Notes under the pieces: model-generated
Seen by the model: the letters and a program-made list of their open reading frames with translations, nothing else
Told to the model about the DNA's origin: nothing
Database searches by the model: none
Position numbers and translations under genes: made by a program
DNA from: Acidovorax sp. NB1
GTDB lineage: Bacteria > Pseudomonadota > Gammaproteobacteria > Burkholderiales > Burkholderiaceae_C
Direction: 5' to 3'
Assembly: GCF_005405905.1 (NCBI RefSeq)
Contig: NZ_BJHU01000016.1
Span: forward strand, 62,001 to 126,000
Length of the DNA: 64,000 nt
Shown here: one piece after another, positions 41,707-51,471 of the stretch
Position numbering within the stretch: the first letter of the stretch is position 1
How the letters are laid out: every line of letters starts with the position of its first letter

Positions 41707-43038
41707 ATGCCCCAATCCCTCAACGAACAACTGAGCCGCGAACAGCAAATTGCCGCCCTGGAAAAAGACTGGGCGACCAACCCCCGCTGGAAGGGTGTGA
41801 AGCGCGGTTACAGCGCAGCCGACGTGGTGCGCCTGCGTGGCTCGCTGCCTATCGAGCACACGCTGGCCAAGCGCGGTGCTGAAAAGCTGTGGGACAAGAT
41901 CAACGGCGGCGCCAAGAAGGGCTATGTGAACGCGTTCGGCGCGATCTCTGCCGGCCAAGCCATGCAACAAGCCAAGGCCGGTCTCGAAGCCGTGTACCTG
42001 TCGGGCTGGCAAGTGGCTGCCGACGGCAACACCAGCGAAACCATGTACCCCGACCAGTCGCTGTATGCGTATGACTCGGTGCCCACCATGGTCCGCCGCA
42101 TCAACAACACCTTCAAGCGCGCTGACGAAATCCAGTGGGGCCGTGGCATCAACCCCGGCGACAAGGAATTCATCGACTACTTCCTGCCCATCGTGGCCGA
42201 CGCAGAAGCTGGTTTCGGCGGCGTGCTGAACGCCTTCGAACTGATGAAGAACATGATTCAAAGCGGCGCTGCTGGCGTTCACTTTGAAGACCAGCTGGCT
42301 GCCGTGAAGAAGTGCGGCCACATGGGTGGCAAGGTGCTGGTGCCTACGCAAGAAGCCTGCGAAAAGCTGATCTCCGCACGTTTCGCTGCTGACGTGATGG
42401 GCGTGTCCACCATCGTGCTGGCCCGCACCGATGCCGAAGCCGCCAACCTGATCACGTCCGACCACGACGCCAACGACAAGCCTTTCCTGACCGGCGAGCG
42501 CACGCAAGAAGGCTTCTACCGCGTGAAGAACGGTCTGGAGCAAGCTATCAGCCGTGGCGTGGCCTACGCCCCTTACGCCGACCTGGTGTGGTGCGAAACC
42601 GGCGTGCCAGACATCGGCTTTGCCCGTGAATTCGCTCAGGCCGTGCACGCGGCCTGCCCTGGCAAGCTGCTGTCCTACAACTGCTCGCCATCGTTCAACT
42701 GGAAGAAGAACCTCAACGACAAGCAGATCGCATCGTTCCAGGAAGACCTGTCGGCTCTGGGCTACAAGTACCAGTTCATCACGCTGGCCGGTATCCACAT
42801 CAACTGGTTCAACACCTTCCAGTTCGCCCATGCATACGCCCAAGGCGAAGGCATGAAGCACTACACCGAAATGGTGCAAGAGCCAGAATTCGCAGCACGC
42901 GAAAAGGGCTACACCTTCGTGTCGCACCAACAAGAAGTGGGCGCAGGCTACTTCGACGACGTGACCACCGTGATCCAGGGCGGCTCGTCCAGCGTGAAGG
43001 CCCTGACGGGTTCGACCGAAGAAGAGCAGTTCCACTGA
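41707..43038 (+). CDS. aceA: Isocitrate lyase
   Basis: AceA splits isocitrate to glyoxylate and succinate in the glyoxylate bypass. The 443-residue product starts at ATG 41707 ([20 protein letters not shown]). The catalytic loop KKCGHMGGK has Cys203, and other blocks are [26 protein letters not shown] and [12 protein letters not shown]. The upstream in-frame extension overlaps the operator region and is rejected. Malate synthase is not in the window. A strong terminator follows. Confidence 0.96.
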
Positions 43039-43090
43039 TCTTGAGGGGCTGATGCGCTGCCAGGGTGTGGCGCAAAATGCACCGAATGAA

Positions 43091-43119
43091 AGCCCGAAGC
43101 GCCCGCTTCGGGCTTTTTT
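43091..43119 (+). terminator. Rho-independent terminator after aceA
   Basis: AGCCCGAAGC / GCTTCGGGCT, 10-bp stem, GCCC loop, followed by TTTTT. Confidence 0.92.
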
Positions 43120-43133
43120 GTTGGTGGCAAGGT

Positions 43134-43139
43134 TAAAAT
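43134..43139 (+). promoter_or_regulatory. Possible -10 box of the thrS leader transcript
   Basis: TAAAAT lies 49 bp before the leader-peptide ATG. No convincing -35 was found at 16-18 bp, so the promoter position is tentative. Confidence 0.3.
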
Positions 43140-43182
43140 GCCAGCAAATTCACTGCACAAGAGCGAGAAAGGCAATCTGGTT

Positions 43183-43224
43183 ATGACACCGCGAACTACA
43201 TCGGAGATGTTGACCGGCCTCTAA
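43183..43224 (+). CDS. Putative thrS leader peptide (Thr-rich, 13 residues)
   Basis: MTPRTTSEMLTGL followed by TAA. Four of thirteen residues are Thr, encoded ACA, ACT, ACA, ACC; ACA and ACT are uncommon in a GC-rich genome. GAGAAAGG lies about 10 nt upstream of the ATG. Translation of the adjacent Thr codons 5 and 6 should sense threonyl-tRNA charging and choose between the RNA folds at 43190-43294. Seen in sequence: codons, spacing and complementarity. Inferred: that it is translated. Confidence 0.6.
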   Translation: MTPRTTSEMLTGL

Positions 43225-43294
43225 GGCTGGCTGTTCGCGCCTGCACGAGATTGCACACACCTCCAAAAAGCGCGGACCTGTTCCGCGCTTTTTT
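43190..43294 (+). promoter_or_regulatory. Candidate transcription attenuator controlling thrS
   Basis: Segment 1 CGCGAAC (43190-43196, inside the leader peptide) pairs with segment 2 GTTCGCG (43233-43239). Segment 2 GTTCGCGC (43233-43240) also pairs with segment 3 GCGCGGAC (43270-43277), 8 bp with one G-U. Segment 3 GCGCGG (43270-43275) pairs with segment 4 CCGCGC (43283-43288), extended by three A-T pairs and followed by a T run, forming an intrinsic terminator. Stalling at Thr codons 5-6 (43195-43200) would mask segment 1 and favour 2:3 antitermination; a ribosome at the stop codon would mask segment 2 and favour termination. Confidence 0.65.
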
Positions 43295-43356
43295 GTTTTA
43301 CGGGCCTGGCGCGTGCCCGCACCCCTTGCACTGATTGAAAAGAAAGAGTTACTCCC

Positions 43357-45276
43357 ATGATTCACATCACGCTTCCTGATGGCTCGCAACGCGAATTCCC
43401 GGGCCCTGTGACGGTGGCCGAAGTGGCGGCCTCCATTGGCACGGGCCTGGCCAAGGCAGCCCTGGCGGGCAAGATTGACGGCAAGGTGGTGGATACCAGC
43501 TACCAGATCACGGCCGACAGCCCGCTGTCCATCGTCACTGCCAAGGATGCTGATGGCCTCGAAGTCATCCGCCACTCCACGGCCCACTTGCTGGCCTATG
43601 CGGTGAAGGAGCTGTTTCCTGATGCGCAGGTCACCATCGGCCCGGTGATCGAGAATGGCTTCTTCTACGATTTCTCGTACAAGCGCCCCTTCACGCCCGA
43701 AGACCTGGTGGCCATCGAAAAGCGCATGGCCGAACTCGCCGCCAAGGACGAGCCCGTGGTGCGCCGCGTTCTGCCACGCGACGAGGCTGTGGCCTATTTC
43801 AAGGGCCTGGGCGAGCACTACAAGGCCGAGATCATTGCGAGCATCCCCAGCAATGAGGATGTGAGCCTGTACCGCGAAGGCAATTTTGAAGATCTGTGCC
43901 GTGGCCCCCACGTGCCCAGCACGGGCAAACTGAAGTTCTTCAAGCTCATGAAGGTGGCGGGTGCCTACTGGCGTGGCGATCACCGTAATGAGATGCTGCA
44001 GCGTATCTATGGCACGGCCTGGACTTCCAAGGAAGAACTGCAGCAGTACCTCACCATGCTGGAAGAGGCTGAAAAGCGCGACCACCGCAAGCTGGGGCGT
44101 GAGCTGGACCTGTTCCACATGGACGAGCATTCGCCCGGCACCGTGTTCTGGCACCCCAAGGGCTGGGCACTGTGGCAGGAGGTCGAGCAGTACATGCGCC
44201 GCGTGTACCGCAACAACGGCTACCAGGAGGTCAAGGGCCCGCAGATCCTGGACAAGAGCCTGTGGGAGAAAACGGGCCACTGGGACAAGTACCGCGACAA
44301 CATGTTCACGACCGAATCGGAAAAGCGCGACTACGCGCTCAAGCCGATGAACTGCCCCGGCCACATCCTGATCTACAAGCAGGGTATCAAGAGCTACCGC
44401 GACCTGCCGCTGCGGTACGGCGAGTTCGGTGCCTGCCACCGCAACGAGCCCACGGGTGGCCTGCACGGCATCATGCGCGTGCGCGGTTTCACGCAGGATG
44501 ATGGCCACATCTTCTGCACCGAAGAGCAGGTGCAAGAGGAGTGCGCAAACTACACGGCTTTGGTGCAGAAGGTCTACAAGGACTTCGGCTTCACCGACAT
44601 CATCTACAAGGTGGCCACGCGGCCCGAGGCGCGCATCGGCACTGAAGAGGCCTGGGATCGCGCCGAAAAGGCGCTGATGGATGGCTTGCGCTATTCGGGC
44701 TGCGAGTTTGAGATCGCTGAAGGCGAGGGTGCGTTCTATGGCCCCAAGATCGAGTACACGCTGAAGGACGCGCTGGGTCGCCAGTGGCAATGTGGCACGA
44801 TGCAGATCGACCCCAATCTGCCCGAGCGCCTGGACGCTGAGTACGTGGCCGAAGACGGCAGTCGCAAGCGCCCGCTGATGCTGCACCGCGCGACGGTGGG
44901 CAGCATGGAGCGTTTCATTGGCATGCTGATCGAGCACTACGCGGGCGCGTTCCCTGTCTGGCTTGCTCCTGTGCAGGTGGCGGTGCTTAACATCACCGAT
45001 GCACAGGCCGATTACTGTCGCGAAATTGCAGCAAAGCTGCAAAAAGCACTGCCGAATCAAGACCTTAGAGTGGAGACCGATCTGCGCAACGAGAAGATTA
45101 CGTATAAAATACGTGAGCATTCGTTGCAAAAGCTGCCGTACATCCTTGTCGCGGGCGACAAGGAGAAGGCCGCAGGAGCCGTCGCAGTGCGCGGCCGGGG
45201 CAATCGTGACCTCGGCGTGATGTCTGTTGAAGCGTTCGCCGAGCTGATCGCCCAAGACATCGCCACCAAAGCCTGA
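43357..45276 (+). CDS. thrS: Threonyl-tRNA synthetase
   Basis: Class II synthetase charging tRNA-Thr. The 639-residue product has a TGS domain at residues 1-60 ([20 protein letters not shown]) and an editing domain with [10 protein letters not shown] near 70. The catalytic core has the zinc ligands Cys333 (NCPGH), His384 (DDGHIFC) and His510 (LHRATVG). A C-terminal anticodon-binding domain completes it. First structural gene of thrS-infC-rpmI-rplT-pheS-pheT-ihfA-merR. The leader carries a candidate Thr-responsive attenuator instead of a recognisable E. coli-type translational operator. Confidence 0.97.
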
Positions 45277-45363: not shown

Positions 45364-45963
45364 ATCGCTACTGAATTTCGTGATCGTCGCCACCGTGAAG
45401 AGCGCAAGCATCGCCTGAACCGTGAAATCATGGCCCCGGAAGTGCGTCTTTCCGGGCCTGATAACGAGCCTTTGGGTGTTGTCAGCCTGATGGAGGCCCT
45501 GCGCATGGCTGGCGAGCTGGACGTGGATCTGGTGGAAATTGCTGCCACTGCAAATCCACCGGTGTGCCGCCTCATGGACTACGGCAAGTTCAAGTACCAA
45601 GAGCAAAAGCGTGCGGCGGAAGCCAAAGCCAAGCAGACGGTCATTGAGATCAAGGAAGTCAAGTTCCGTCCCGGTACGGACGATGGCGACTACAACATCA
45701 AGATGCGCAATATCCGCCGCTTTCTGGCGGATGGCGACAAGTGCAAGATCACGCTGCGTTTTCGTGGCCGCGAGATCACGCACCAGGAGCTGGGCCTTGC
45801 ACTGCTCAATCGCATTCGCGATGAGCTGGCAGACACCATCATCATCGAGCAGTTTCCCAAGCTGGAAGGCCGTCAGATGATCATGATGATTGCGCCGGGC
45901 CGCAAGAAGCCGGCTGCCAAGCCGGCTGCAGAAGGTGCTCCGGCACCAGGAGCAGCTGCCTGA
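45364..45963 (+). CDS. infC: Translation initiation factor IF-3, with a non-canonical ATC start
   Basis: IF-3 prevents subunit association and proofreads start codons. The frame is open upstream of ATG 45430. The family N-terminus [20 protein letters not shown] is encoded there, beginning at ATC 45364, which sits 8 nt after AAGGA. This gives 199 residues. E. coli infC uses AUU so that IF-3 represses its own translation; ATC would act the same way. N domain: [18 protein letters not shown] domain: [20 protein letters not shown]. An Ala/Pro tail follows. Confidence 0.93.
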
Positions 45964-46146
45964 GCGGCATCGGCATAGATGCCAGGATTTGAGCATTGCG
46001 CCTGAAAGGGCGAGGTGCTTGAAGGCGGTGTGAAAGCACCGCCAAACGAGAAAGGCGAAAGCCTTTCGAAAAAGTGGCTCGGGGCCAACAAGTTTGCAGA
46101 TCGGTTTGCAAACGCCTCACGAGCACAATGAAAAAGGAGCATTCAC
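45964..46146 (+). promoter_or_regulatory. Structured infC-rpmI spacer, possible L20 operator
   Basis: 183 nt with three visible hairpins: GGCGGTG / CACCGCC with a 6-nt loop, AAAGGC / GCCTTT closed by GAAA, and GTTTGC / GCAAAC. In E. coli the equivalent region carries the L20 binding pseudoknot that represses rpmI-rplT. The position and degree of structure agree; the L20 recognition motif was not verified. Confidence 0.4.
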
Positions 46147-46350
46147 ATGCCCAAAATGAAGACCAAGAGCAGCGCGAAAAAACGTTTCCGCGTTCGTCCC
46201 GGTGGCACCGTCAAGCGCGGTCAAGCCTTCAAGCGTCACATCTTGACCAAGAAGACCACCAAGAACAAGCGCCATCTGCGTGGTGCGGTTGCTGTGCACG
46301 AGACCAATATGGGCTCGATTTCACAGATGCTGCCCGGCATGGGCGTTTAA
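46147..46350 (+). CDS. rpmI: 50S ribosomal protein L35
   Basis: A 67-residue basic protein ([36 protein letters not shown]). AAAGGAG precedes the ATG. It lies 26 bp before rplT in the thrS operon. Confidence 0.97.
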
Positions 46351-46376
46351 TTTACTGACGAACAAGGAGTACATAC

Positions 46377-46736
46377 ATGCCTCGCGTCAAACGTGGTGTA
46401 ACGGCCCGTGCCCGTCACAAGAAAGTTCTCGCCCTTGCTAAGGGTTTCCGTGGTCGCCGCGGTAATGTCTACCGTATCGCCAAACAGGCGGTAATGAAGG
46501 CTGGGCAATATGCCTACCGTGACCGCCGCACCAAGAAGCGCGTGTTCCGCCAGCTGTGGATCGCCCGTATCAACGCCGCTGCCCGTGAGCTGGGCCTGAC
46601 CTACAGCCAGTTCGCCAACGGCCTGAAGAAGGCTTCCATCGAGATCGACCGCAAGATGCTGGCCGACCTCGCAGTGCACGACAAGGCTGCCTTCGGTAGC
46701 ATCGTGGAGCAAGTCAAGGCCAAGCTGGCTGCTTGA
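46377..46736 (+). CDS. rplT: 50S ribosomal protein L20
   Basis: A 119-residue basic 23S rRNA-binding protein ([60 protein letters not shown]). In E. coli it also represses rpmI-rplT translation. AAGGAG lies upstream. Confidence 0.97.
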
Positions 46737-46756
46737 GTTCACGATGAGCGGCTATC

Positions 46757-46817
46757 GTTCTGATAGCTGCTTGCGCAATAACAGCAAGGGCTAGGGCTTG
46801 AAAAGGCACTAGCCCTT
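46757..46817 (+). repeat. Dispersed AT-rich repeat, copy 8, with hairpin before pheS
   Basis: TTCTGATAGCTGCTTGCGCA, ATAACAGCAAGGGCTAG and GGCTTGAAAAGG. The AAGGGCTAG (46786-46794) and CTAGCCCTT (46809-46817) arms form a 9-bp stem followed by TGTTCATTTTC, a weak U-rich tail. E. coli pheST has a Phe-rich attenuator leader here; no Phe-rich peptide is present in this gap. Confidence 0.5.
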
Positions 46818-46837
46818 GTTCATTTTCAAGAGTCGAT

Positions 46838-47890
46838 ATGAACGAGTTGGATTCCCTGATCGAAAGCGCGACGCAGTTGTTTGCCCAAAGCGCTACCCCC
46901 GCTGATCTGGAAAATGCCAAGGCGCAGTTTCTGGGCAAGTCGGGCCGCGTGACCGAACTCATGAAGGGCATGGCACAGCTTTCCGTCGAGGAAAAAAAAT
47001 CTCGCGGTGCCGCCATCAACGTAGCCAAGCAGGCGATCGAGGCAGCACTGACGGCGCGCCGTCAGGCCCTGGCCGATGCGGAACTGCAAGTGCAGCTCAA
47101 GGCCGAAGCGCTGGATGTGAGCCTGCCAGGCCGCCAGCGCGGGCAAGGTGGATTGCATCCCGTTTCCCTCACGCTGGAGCGTATCCAGGGCATCTTCGGC
47201 TCCATGGGCTTTGATGTGGCTGAAGGCCCCGAGATCGAAACCGACTGGTTCAACTTCACAGCATTGAACACGCCGGAAGACCATCCTGCGCGTTCCATGC
47301 ACGACACTTTTTATGTGGAAGGCGGCACGCCCGAAGCGCCCAACCTGCTGCGCACCCACACCAGCCCCATGCAGATCCGCCACGCGGTGCAGCATGTGAA
47401 AAAACACCGTGCGCTGCTTGACGCGGGCCAGACCATGCCCGAGATCCGTGTGATCGCCCCGGGCCGCACCTACCGCGTGGACAGCGATGCCACGCATTCG
47501 CCCATGTTCCACCAGTGCGAAGGCCTGTGGGTGGGCGAGAACGTGAGTTTCAAGGACCTGAAGGTGATCTTCACCGCCTTCTGCCGCACCTTCTTCGAAA
47601 GCGACGATCTGGTGCTGCGTTTCCGTCCGAGCTTCTTCCCCTTCACGGAGCCCAGCGCCGAAATCGATATCCAGTTCCAGACAGGCCCGCTCGCCGGCCG
47701 CTGGCTGGAGGTGGCCGGCTCCGGCCAAGTGCATCCCAACGTGGTGCGCAACATGGGGCTGGACCCTGAGAAGTACATCGGCTTTGCCTTTGGCATGGGC
47801 CCCGACCGCCTGACCATGCTGCGCTATGGTGTGAACGATCTGCGCTTGTTCTTCGACGGCGACGTCCGCTTCTTGTCGCAGTTCCAGTAA
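46838..47890 (+). CDS. pheS: Phenylalanyl-tRNA synthetase alpha subunit
   Basis: Catalytic alpha subunit of the heterotetramer. In the 350-residue product an N-terminal coiled coil is followed by [19 protein letters not shown]. Class II motifs follow: [25 protein letters not shown] (motif 2 region), HQCEGLWVG and the motif 3 block [14 protein letters not shown]. Weak AAGAG Shine-Dalgarno sequence. 89 bp before pheT. Confidence 0.97.
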
Positions 47891-47979
47891 GCAACAAGGC
47901 CCGGGCCCACAAGCCATTTTCGCCCTGGCGCGCGCACTGACCCTGGCCGCGCGGGCACCTTCCGTACAAGAGTTCGACT

Positions 47980-50427
47980 ATGCAATTCCCTGAATCCTGG
48001 TTGCGTGAGTTCTGCAACCCACCCCTTTCGACCGCCGAGTTGGCCGAGACGCTGACCATGGCCGGCCTGGAGGTGGAGGAGCTGCGCCCTGTGGCGCCAC
48101 CGTTCTCCAAGATCGTCGTGGGCGAGATCAAGGAGGCCGTGCAGCACCCCGACGCTGACCGCCTGCGCGTGTGCCAGGTGGACGTGGGGCAGGGCGCCTT
48201 GCTCAACATCGTCTGTGGTGCACCCAATGCGCGTGTGGGAATCAAGGTGCCCTGCGCCCTGGTGGGTGCCGAGTTGCCGCCGGGCGACGATGGCAAGCCC
48301 TTCCTCATCAAGGTTGGCAAGCTGCGCGGTGTGGAAAGCCAGGGCATGCTGTGCTCGGCCCGCGAGCTCAAGCTGTCGGAAGACCACGGTGGTCTGCTGG
48401 AGCTGGATGCCTCTGCGCCCGTGGGCCAGGACATCCGCAAGCACCTGAACCTGGACGACACACTGTTCACCCTCAAGCTCACGCCCAATCTGGCGCATTG
48501 CCTGAGCGTCTACGGTATTGCGCGTGAAGTGTCGGCCTTGACCGGCGCGCCGCTGCAGCAACCGTCGTTCCCTGCGGTGGCTGCCAAGCTGTCCGACAAG
48601 CTGGCTGTAAAGGTGAGTGCACCAGACCTGTGTGGCCGCTTCTCCGGCCGCATCGTGCGCAACGTGAATACGCGCGCTGCCACGCCCCAGTGGATGCTGG
48701 ACCGCTTGGCACGCTGCGGCCAGCGCGGCGTGTCGCCCCTGGTGGATATCTCCAACTACGTGATGTTCGAGCTGGGTCGTCCTTCGCATATTTTTGACCT
48801 GGACAAGATCCACGGTGGCCTGGATGTGCGTTGGGGCAAGGCTGGCGAGCAGCTCAAGCTGCTCAATGGCAGCACCATCGCGGTGGATGACAAAGTGGGT
48901 GTGATCGCAGATGACAACCAGGTGGAATCGCTGGCCGGCATCATGGGCGGCGATGCCACGGCGGTGTCCGACGACACGAAACATATCTACATTGAGGCGG
49001 CCTTCTGGTGGCCTAAGGCGGTGGCAGGTCGTTCTCGCCGTTTCAACTTCTCGACCGATGCAGGCCACCGCTTTGAGCGTGGTGTGGACCCGAGCCTGAC
49101 GGTCGAGCACATCGAACGCATCACCCAGCTGGTCGTCGATATCTGCGGCACGCCGGACACCGCCTGCGGCCCGATGGACGACCAGTCGGTGAACCTGCCG
49201 GTGCCGCAAGCCGTCACGCTGCGCGTGGCGCGCGCGGCCAAGGTCATCGGCATGCCTCTCACGCAGGCGCAATGCGCTGATGCGTTGCGCGGCCTGGGCC
49301 TGCCGGTGACGGAGGGGGATGGCTTGCTCACCGTCGTGCCGCCCTCGTACCGCTTCGACATCACCATCGAGGAGGACCTGATCGAAGAGGTGGCGCGCAT
49401 GGTGGGCTACAACAACCTGCCCACCACACCTCCGCTGGCGCCCATCACGCCCAAGCTGGCACGCGAAGCCACGCGCAGCCCTTTTGCCGTGCGCCGCTCG
49501 CTGGCGGGGCTGGGTTACCAGGAAACCATCAATTTCAGTTTTGTGGAAGAGCGCTGGGAGCACGAACTGGCGGCCAATGCGCAGCCCATCAAGCTACTCA
49601 ATCCAATTGCCAGTCAGATGAGTGTGATGCGTTCGACCCTGCTGGGTTCGCTGCTGCAGGTTTTGAAGTTCAATCTGGACCGCAAGGCCCAGCGTGTGCG
49701 CGTGTTCGAGCTCGGCCGTGTGTTTCTGCGTGATGCGGCCGTGCGCAACACCGACACGACGGTGGAAGGCTTCCACCAGCCCATGCGCGTGGCGGGGATG
49801 GCTTATGGCCCGGGCGACGTGCTGCAATGGGGCCGCAAGGAGCAGTCCATTGACTTCTTCGACGTGAAGGGCGATGTGGAAGCACTGCTGGCTCCGTTGA
49901 AGGCAACCTTTGAGCCTGCCACCCATCCCGCCATGCACCCGGGCCGTTGCGCACGCGTGCTGGTGCAAGGCCGCGCGATTGGCTTTGTGGGCGAGTTGCA
50001 TCCTCAGTGGCGCCAGTCCTGGGACTTGCCCCAGGCCCCCGTGATGTTCGAGCTGGAGCTGGATGCCGTCCTGCAGCGTTTGGTGCCGCAGTTCAAGCCC
50101 GTGGCAAAGCACCAGGCGGTGGAGCGCGATCTGGCTGTGGTGGTCGCGGAGCGTGTGACGCACGCTGACATCATGGAAGCGGTGCAGCAGGCAGTGCCCG
50201 GTGCCACGCTTCGCTCGGCCGTGCTGTTTGATGTGTATCGCCCCAAGGTACTGCGTGCAGGCGAAGAGGCCTCTGCAGGTGGACTGGCGCAAGGTGAGAA
50301 GAGCCTTGCCGTGCGCTTGACGCTGGGCAGCGACGACGCCACGCTGACGGAGGCTGAGATCGATGCTGCGGTGCAGGCCGTAGTGACTCAACTGGTCCAG
50401 CGCACGGGTGCAAGGCTGCGTGTTTGA
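47980..50427 (+). CDS. pheT: Phenylalanyl-tRNA synthetase beta subunit
   Basis: An 815-residue subunit carrying the editing and tRNA-binding modules. The N-terminal EMAP/OB domain spans about residues 40-150 ([20 protein letters not shown]). B3/B4 editing and B5 domains follow, then a catalytic-like core ([40 protein letters not shown]). The C-terminal ferredoxin-fold anticodon domain contains [20 protein letters not shown]. Its stop overlaps a possible upstream start of ihfA. Confidence 0.97.
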
Positions 50428-50465
50428 TGACCGACAAAGATAACGCCCAACCGGGGAGGGATGCC

Positions 50466-50792
50466 ATGATCGAATTTGCCGTCGAAAGCCTGGAGACACC
50501 GGCACTGACCAAGGCACAGCTGGCCGATCTGCTGTTCGACCAGATCGGCCTGAACAAGCGCGAGTCCAAGGACATGATCGACGCATTCTTCGATCTGATC
50601 GCGCAAAGCCTGGTTGAGGGCAAGGACGTCAAGCTCTCGGGTTTTGGCAACTTCCAGATCCGTACCAAGGCGCCGCGCCCAGGACGCAATCCGCGTACTG
50701 GGGAGGCCATTCCGATCAAGGCGCGCCGGGTGGTGACTTTTCATGCCAGCAGCAAGCTCAAGGAGCAGATCCAGACAGCGGCTGTGGTGTGA
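50466..50792 (+). CDS. ihfA: Integration host factor subunit alpha
   Basis: DNA-bending heterodimer subunit. The ATG at 50466 is chosen because GGGGAGGG lies just upstream; an ATG at 50427 overlapping the pheT stop would add 13 residues. In the 108-residue product the core reads [20 protein letters not shown] and [15 protein letters not shown], with the DNA-intercalating [14 protein letters not shown] arm. Last-but-one gene of the operon, the usual place in Proteobacteria. Confidence 0.95.
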
Positions 50793-51352: not shown

Positions 51353-51429
51353 CGGCGTGTAGCGCAGCCTGGTAGCGCACTTGCATGGGGTGCAAGGGGT
51401 CGCGAGTTCGAATCCCGCCACGCCGACCA
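51353..51429 (+). tRNA. tRNA-Pro (anticodon GGG), CCA encoded
   Basis: 77-nt cloverleaf: acceptor CGGCGTG / CACGCCG, D arm with GCGCAGCCTGGTAGCGC, anticodon stem CTTGC / GCAAG around ATGGGGT (anticodon GGG), and T arm GCGAGTTCGAATCCCGC. Discriminator A and encoded CCA follow. The C1-G72 start pair is typical of proteobacterial tRNA-Pro. Confidence 0.97.
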
Positions 51430-51437
51430 TTGTTAGC

Positions 51438-51471
51438 AAAAGCCCAGAACCGAAAGGTTCTGGGCTTTTTT
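51438..51471 (+). terminator. Terminator after tRNA-Pro
   Basis: AGCCCAGAACC / GGTTCTGGGCT, 11-bp stem closed by a GAAA tetraloop, followed by a T run. Confidence 0.93.

Follow-up and report, generated by a model that had tools for sequence, protein, structure and literature searches.

What controls thrS, the gene for threonine-tRNA ligase (ThrRS), in Acidovorax sp. NB1? In E. coli, ThrRS binds tRNA-like arms near the ribosome-binding site of thrS and represses its translation, while attenuation by leader peptides is known in that species for trp, thr, his, and pheST. The locus studied here lies in a 64,000-nucleotide stretch of contig NZ_BJHU01000016.1, referred to as the window. Feedback on thrS would be common to both organisms, but thrS in the window is instead preceded by a coding leader and a terminator, which a first-pass annotation described as a complete Thr-peptide attenuator. 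On the evidence below we consider it highly likely that this leader attenuates transcription of the thrS operon by a ribosome-mediated mechanism that responds to the charging of Thr-tRNA. The reading is built on sequence and comparison: an open reading frame (ORF) whose Thr codons are under selection, a terminator, alternative helices, and linkage to thrS. The promoter, ribosome stalling, its timing, and the response to threonine are what we infer from these.

Organization of the thrS Leader and Probable Operon

Downstream of a gene for isocitrate lyase (NCBIfam), which has its own terminator at 43088-43117, the 5′ leader of thrS holds a short, translated-looking ORF with a ribosome-binding site, and its frame is preserved among relatives (Table 1). 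The codons read ATG ACA CCG CGA ACT ACA TCG GAG ATG TTG ACC GGC CTC TAA, with Thr control codons at positions 2, 5, 6, and 11 (ACA, ACT, ACA, and ACC); both the 13-codon frame with four Thr codons and the Shine-Dalgarno-like site GAGAAAGG that had been claimed upstream of thrS were confirmed by direct reading. With up to two mismatches allowed, ATGACACCGCGAACTAC occurs once in the genome, which rules out a second copy of the leader. Transcription probably starts near 43146, the -10-like hexamer TAAAAT standing at -33 relative to GAAAGG; a stricter sigma-70 scan of 42900-43600 gave no promoter match. The terminator sits between the leader ORF and the first gene and ends 63 nt upstream of thrS, and 42900-43600 holds 3 terminator-like sites against 0.8 in shuffles.

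Table 1. Features of the thrS leader and the genes that follow it (window coordinates).
Feature	Position	Strand	Basis or remark
-10-like hexamer TAAAAT	43134-43139	+	Direct reading; position typical of leaders
Shine-Dalgarno-like GAGAAAGG of leader ORF	43165-43172	+	Direct reading
Conserved core GGTTATGACACCGCGAACTAC, 21-mer	43179-43199	+	At least 118 loci in named genomes
Leader ORF MTPRTTSEMLTGL, 13 codons	43183-43224	+	Read from sequence; conserved, Thr frame-specific
Segment 1 CGCGAAC, partner of segment 2	43190-43196	+	Folding and duplex energies
Segment 2 GTTCGCGC, partner of segment 1 or 3	43233-43240	+	Duplex energies
Strong intrinsic terminator (segments 3 and 4)	43265-43293	+	Independent scan, folding
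Segment 3 GCGCGGAC	43270-43277	+	Terminator scan, folding, duplex energies
Segment 4 TTCCGCGC, then TTTTTTG	43281-43288	+	Terminator scan, folding, duplex energies
thrS, threonine-tRNA ligase	43357-45276	+	TIGR00418, 720.7 bits
infC, rpmI, rplT, pheS, pheT, ihfA	45364-50792	+	NCBIfam; probable rest of transcription unit

The gene order given for the region after the leader (thrS, infC, rpmI, rplT, pheST, ihfA) agreed with the NCBIfam names. Cotranscription of thrS with infC-rpmI-rplT-pheST-ihfA is probable, and a plus-strand terminator scan from thrS to 51438 returned one weak terminator-like site (46331-46345). Farther downstream, a tRNA-Pro(GGG) gene and a strong terminator at 51353-51469 of the window may close the thrS-ihfA transcription unit. 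The infC gene has no ATG at the conserved start, its frame running from ATC at 45364 with an internal ATG at 45430; elsewhere, infC is known to use a rare start codon.

Alternative Helices and a Model for Attenuation

All four pairing segments previously described are present, with a T run after segment 4, which is longer (43281-43288) than had been drawn; likewise the stop codon does lie shortly before segment 2, with a gap of 8 nt and not 9. Duplex folding gave energies of -11.5, -14.3, and -18.7 kcal/mol for helices 1:2, 2:3, and 3:4, which are mutually exclusive, and the fold of 43160-43300 came to -52.5 kcal/mol (z -3.87), equalled by 0 of 200 shuffles. When a stall was modelled, with RNA covered to 43212 and polymerase at 43282, 2:3 was predicted to form; with RNA covered to 43236 the sole remaining predicted helix was the 3:4 terminator, and with no ribosome both 1:2 and 3:4 were predicted. 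By these models the window has in 2:3 a mutually exclusive antiterminator, so placed that a ribosome could decide its formation. At equilibrium the 3:4 terminator beats 2:3 even in the stalled state, and timing must therefore decide.

In the proposed mechanism, polymerase would make a leader of about 150 nt. While charged Thr-tRNA is plentiful, the ribosome would reach the stop codon and cover segment 2, and the 3:4 terminator would form. Under a shortage of Thr-tRNA it would stall at Thr codon 2, 5, or 6, over segment 1, and 2:3 would pair before segment 4 exists, giving readthrough into thrS that probably extends into infC-rpmI-rplT-pheST-ihfA. If the leader were not translated, 1:2 would form and the terminator would then follow.

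Conservation of the Leader and Its Thr Codons

Our family sample comprised 120 genomes, nearly one per genus, in 116 of which thrS was matched. An MTPRT-type core leader and a terminator stand before thrS in 94 of these 116, and 88 of the 94 have an ORF with at least three Thr. The strict core is absent from the other 22/116, some of which carry variants (MVVTPRTPCELF..., MAPRTPFQL..., MTTRTRRSP...), with nothing seen in the rest. Of 114 family genomes, 87 have a short upstream ORF with three or more Thr, compared with 4.1 (sd 2.1) in shuffles, which, like all shuffles and permutations used here, ignore relatedness. In the same test Thr was the sole strongly enriched residue of these short ORFs, the next after it being Arg (25 against 16.2 in shuffles).

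Codon-level comparisons were made on 93 leaders (87 from the window's family and 6 from other families), preselected by the pattern ATGAC.CC.CG.AC with third bases free; outside the set are the genus loci, L031, L033, L037 (false terminator), and six further leaders that the first terminator finder did not catch. Past the core, ACN codons account for 212/835 codons in frame (25.4%) versus 11/742 (1.5%) and 20/742 (2.7%) in the other frames. Threonine occupies codon 6 in 68 of the 93 leaders, encoded there by all four of its codons, and synonymous change is seen at leader codons 6 and 7; the retention of Thr codons in relatives that the first-pass annotation had set as a check was thus borne out. 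Thr kept in frame while its third bases change points to selection on the residue itself, which a sensor of Thr-tRNA needs, and frame-specific Thr codons together with the shuffle test led us to reject a chance pairing of ORF and terminator. Nine of the 93 leaders have only two Thr. A GAAAGG-like site is present in 85/93 leaders, spaced 10 nt from the ATG in 63 of those 85; in 61 of the 85 a -10-like hexamer precedes GAAAGG by at most 60 nt, and in 36 of those 61 it falls at -32 to -36. No conservation is seen upstream of the ribosome-binding site or in the C-terminal half of the peptide.

Pairing was also compared across leaders. The energy of 2:3 lay below its own shuffled mean in 82/93 leaders and that of 1:2 in 79/93 (shuffles that ignore relatedness), and the best 1:2 and 2:3 duplexes overlap by at least 4 bases in 85/93. 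Taken one leader at a time the helices are weak, with the level of the best 3 of 60 shuffles reached by 40/118 for 1:2 and 36/118 for 2:3. The flanks of 2:3 were tested on 70 of the 93 leaders, the remainder having no anchor. Covariation is seen at one base beside the 2:3 core, which is paired in 42/70 leaders against a permutation mean of 30.8 (reached by 1 of 5000 permutations, relatedness ignored), while the other three flanks have no excess of pairing in these 70 leaders (43 versus 42.0, 9 versus 9.9, and one invariant column); the covariation sought in 2:3 thus appeared at one variable flank and not at the rest. In relatives, then, support for the antiterminator comes from the mean and from the single covarying flank, and is weak for leaders taken singly. 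The 1:2 helix held for the window; as drawn, it exists in only 22/93 leaders, this being the number with a 7-nt complement of segment 1 (1.3 expected by shuffling), and segment 1 is for that reason not general.

Closer to the window, a ThrS query matched in 47/47 genus genomes, at full length in 43, and the core leader is present in 29 of the 30 genus loci listed (L022 is without it); L014 carries a 3-nt insertion in the leader that keeps the frame. Among named genomes, the 21-mer GGTTATGACACCGCGAACTAC was found in at least 118 loci. Among the matches listed, it lies upstream of thrS in 116/116 testable loci, the ATG of the leader preceding it by 123-323 nt. L137 and L139 are not counted because their sequence ends too near the match; all 116 of the linked frames close, and their Thr content is 3 to 7. 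The nearest thrS among the named loci listed is that of Acidovorax facilis (L120), at 92.7%.

Wider Distribution and the tRNA-Val Arrangement

The sample outside the family consisted of 81 of 114 order genomes with a thrS match (117 matched in all). An ORF with at least three Thr was found in 25 of the 81, against 3.1 (sd 1.3) in shuffles; Val was likewise raised (21 versus 6.8 in shuffles), an excess that we put down to ORFs inside a tRNA-Val gene. By the rule of a terminator plus an ORF with at least three Thr, 15 of 40 outside families score; because f33 and f10 do so through tRNA-gene ORFs and f35 is doubtful, about a dozen of the 40 are counted. Leader peptides of other families diverge (MFRTSTTTQS, MSFRTTTTGTLNLG, MQLNRTTTTS, MFKRTTTTRISR) but have in common an Arg-Thr pair spelled CGA-AC. 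Under a mechanical rule, Arg-Thr as CGA-AC(T/G/C) occurs in short upstream ORFs with at least two Thr in 16/40 outside families, of which some, e.g., in family f13, may be chance. A reverse-strand control for Arg-Thr gave CGA in 14/34 versus 26/32 on the leader strand; it is not clean, since one forward site was counted twice, and we suspect the influence of the tRNA T-arm. In the class beyond the order, the sample covered 29 of 52 genomes with a thrS match, and a qualifying Thr leader was found at 0/29 loci, the window's genome excluded.

Many families of the order have the arrangement tRNA-Val(GAC), terminator, thrS; those that possess a leader carry it between the tRNA gene and the terminator. 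Examples of tRNA-Val(GAC) before thrS are L074, L081, L084, L321, L324, and L338, some of which have a Thr leader. In the 93-leader set, a T-arm-like motif lies upstream in 3/93, tRNA-Val being mostly gone from just upstream. The attenuator may have arisen by insertion of a coding leader into a tRNA-Val-terminator-thrS unit.

The Invariant Core and Alternative Explanations

Third bases of the core are nearly fixed (ACA 93/93, CCG 93/93, CGA 89/93, ACT 83/93), while those of the first thrS codons vary in the same genomes. In six genes of the window CGA accounts for 0/177 Arg codons and ACA plus ACT for 11/123 Thr codons. A complement to CGAAC is absent in 59/93 leaders, 55 of which keep CGAAC, so that 1:2 pairing explains the core only in part and was rejected as its sole general cause. 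The conservation may also stem from the way CGA is decoded, from a site bound by a protein, or from a function in trans. One tentative idea, which we regard as rather doubtful, is that ACA-CCG-CGA-ACT is a built-in decoding element, in which the rare CGA would slow or weaken the ribosome before the Thr control codons; in its favor, CGA-AC recurs in other families, also where the complementary segment is absent. If true, it would make stalling very sensitive to Thr-tRNA or timed to polymerase.

The near-invariance of GGTTATGACACCGCGAAC, third bases included, which 1:2 pairing does not account for, is what would be expected if the leader served chiefly as a structured RNA to which a protein binds, as in ThrRS autorepression in E. 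coli, with the ORF secondary. We think this quite unlikely, since downstream Thr is kept as a residue, in frame only and with changing third bases, and divergent families retain Thr runs and not the same sequence. A second control layer of the E. coli thrS operator type may nonetheless be present in 43294-43356. The unexplained nucleotide conservation of the core could also reflect action in trans by the released leader RNA or peptide, for which the accessible part of PMC7298713 reports a precedent in the trp leader of Sinorhizobium meliloti; such an additional role appears very improbable here, because neither the sequence upstream of the ribosome-binding site nor the C-terminal half of the peptide is conserved. 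Finally, in many order families thrS follows tRNA-Val and a bare terminator, and there is no leader. This would suit a plain terminator, or one inherited (e.g., from a tRNA-Val unit upstream), together with an ORF arisen by chance and thrS expressed by constant leakage. That Thr codons are frame-specific and exceed shuffles, and that the leader is kept in 94/116 genomes of the family, in which tRNA-Val has mostly been lost from the position immediately upstream (a T-arm-like motif is seen in 3/93 leaders), makes this extremely unlikely. Attenuation sensing Thr-tRNA charging, by contrast, fits what was found at the locus: a leader ORF with a ribosome-binding site, Thr control codons before thrS, a terminator, and the antiterminator 2:3.

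Relation to Known Systems

In E. coli, thrL controls biosynthesis (thrABC) by means of a short leader ORF that contains Thr and Ile codons, together with competing hairpins and an intrinsic terminator. The thrS leader resembles this attenuator in its Thr-codon ORF, competing hairpins, and terminator; it differs in target and in the Ile codons of the E. coli leader. Against the whole Rfam model RF00506 (Thr_leader), 43175-43297 scored 17.2 bits (E 0.74), the gathering score being 55; Rfam holds no family for a thrS leader and gave sub-threshold matches only. E. coli pheST has an attenuator with the leader peptide PheM and Phe codons, and it too is a synthetase operon with codons for its own amino acid, differing in that these are for Phe and stand before pheST. 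T-boxes bind uncharged tRNA directly. They share with the proposed thrS attenuator a synthetase-gene terminator that answers to tRNA charging, but the window has no match to a T-box family model, and only two tRNAs in it reach the gathering score.

At locus L377 (G000:C25, near 370 kb, minus strand), a second leader, with Thr and Ile (MITTITAAAT), lies about 140 nt upstream of the second homoserine dehydrogenase frame. The terminator CCCAGCTCTGGCAGCTGGGTTTTTTT follows it and directly precedes the gene, an arrangement that resembles an attenuator of the E. coli thrL type. At L378, where a homoserine dehydrogenase gene adjoins thrC, a leader was rejected, no terminator having been found in about 400 nt upstream.

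In bacilli, hisS/hisZ have a His leader peptide according to the accessible part of PMC2965389; control of a synthetase gene by a terminator is shared with the model for thrS, the codons (His) and the phylum being different. The available sections of that paper (Naville and Gautheret, 2010) discuss hisS leaders and mention ThrRS autoregulation in E. coli. We found no description of a thrS leader peptide in the accessible main text of open papers, although a 2010 survey of attenuation in aminoacyl-tRNA operons may already have predicted one. Switches of this type are known, yet the type does not seem to be generally recognised at thrS, where four of the five features that define an attenuator appear, judging from sequence, to be present.

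A large group of beta-proteobacteria, which includes Acidovorax, Delftia, Variovorax, Cupriavidus, Massilia, and Janthinobacterium, would control thrS in a manner unlike the translational repression of E. coli, the regulation of an essential synthetase having been rebuilt within the class, possibly by a path from the tRNA-Val-terminator-thrS unit. The thrS leader could be entered in Rfam and used to report on the charging of Thr-tRNA. Through the operon, the Thr-tRNA sensor may also govern initiation factor 3, L35, L20, PheRS, and IHF-alpha. Very probably, the leader lets this bacterium and many of its relatives make more ThrRS when charged Thr-tRNA is short.
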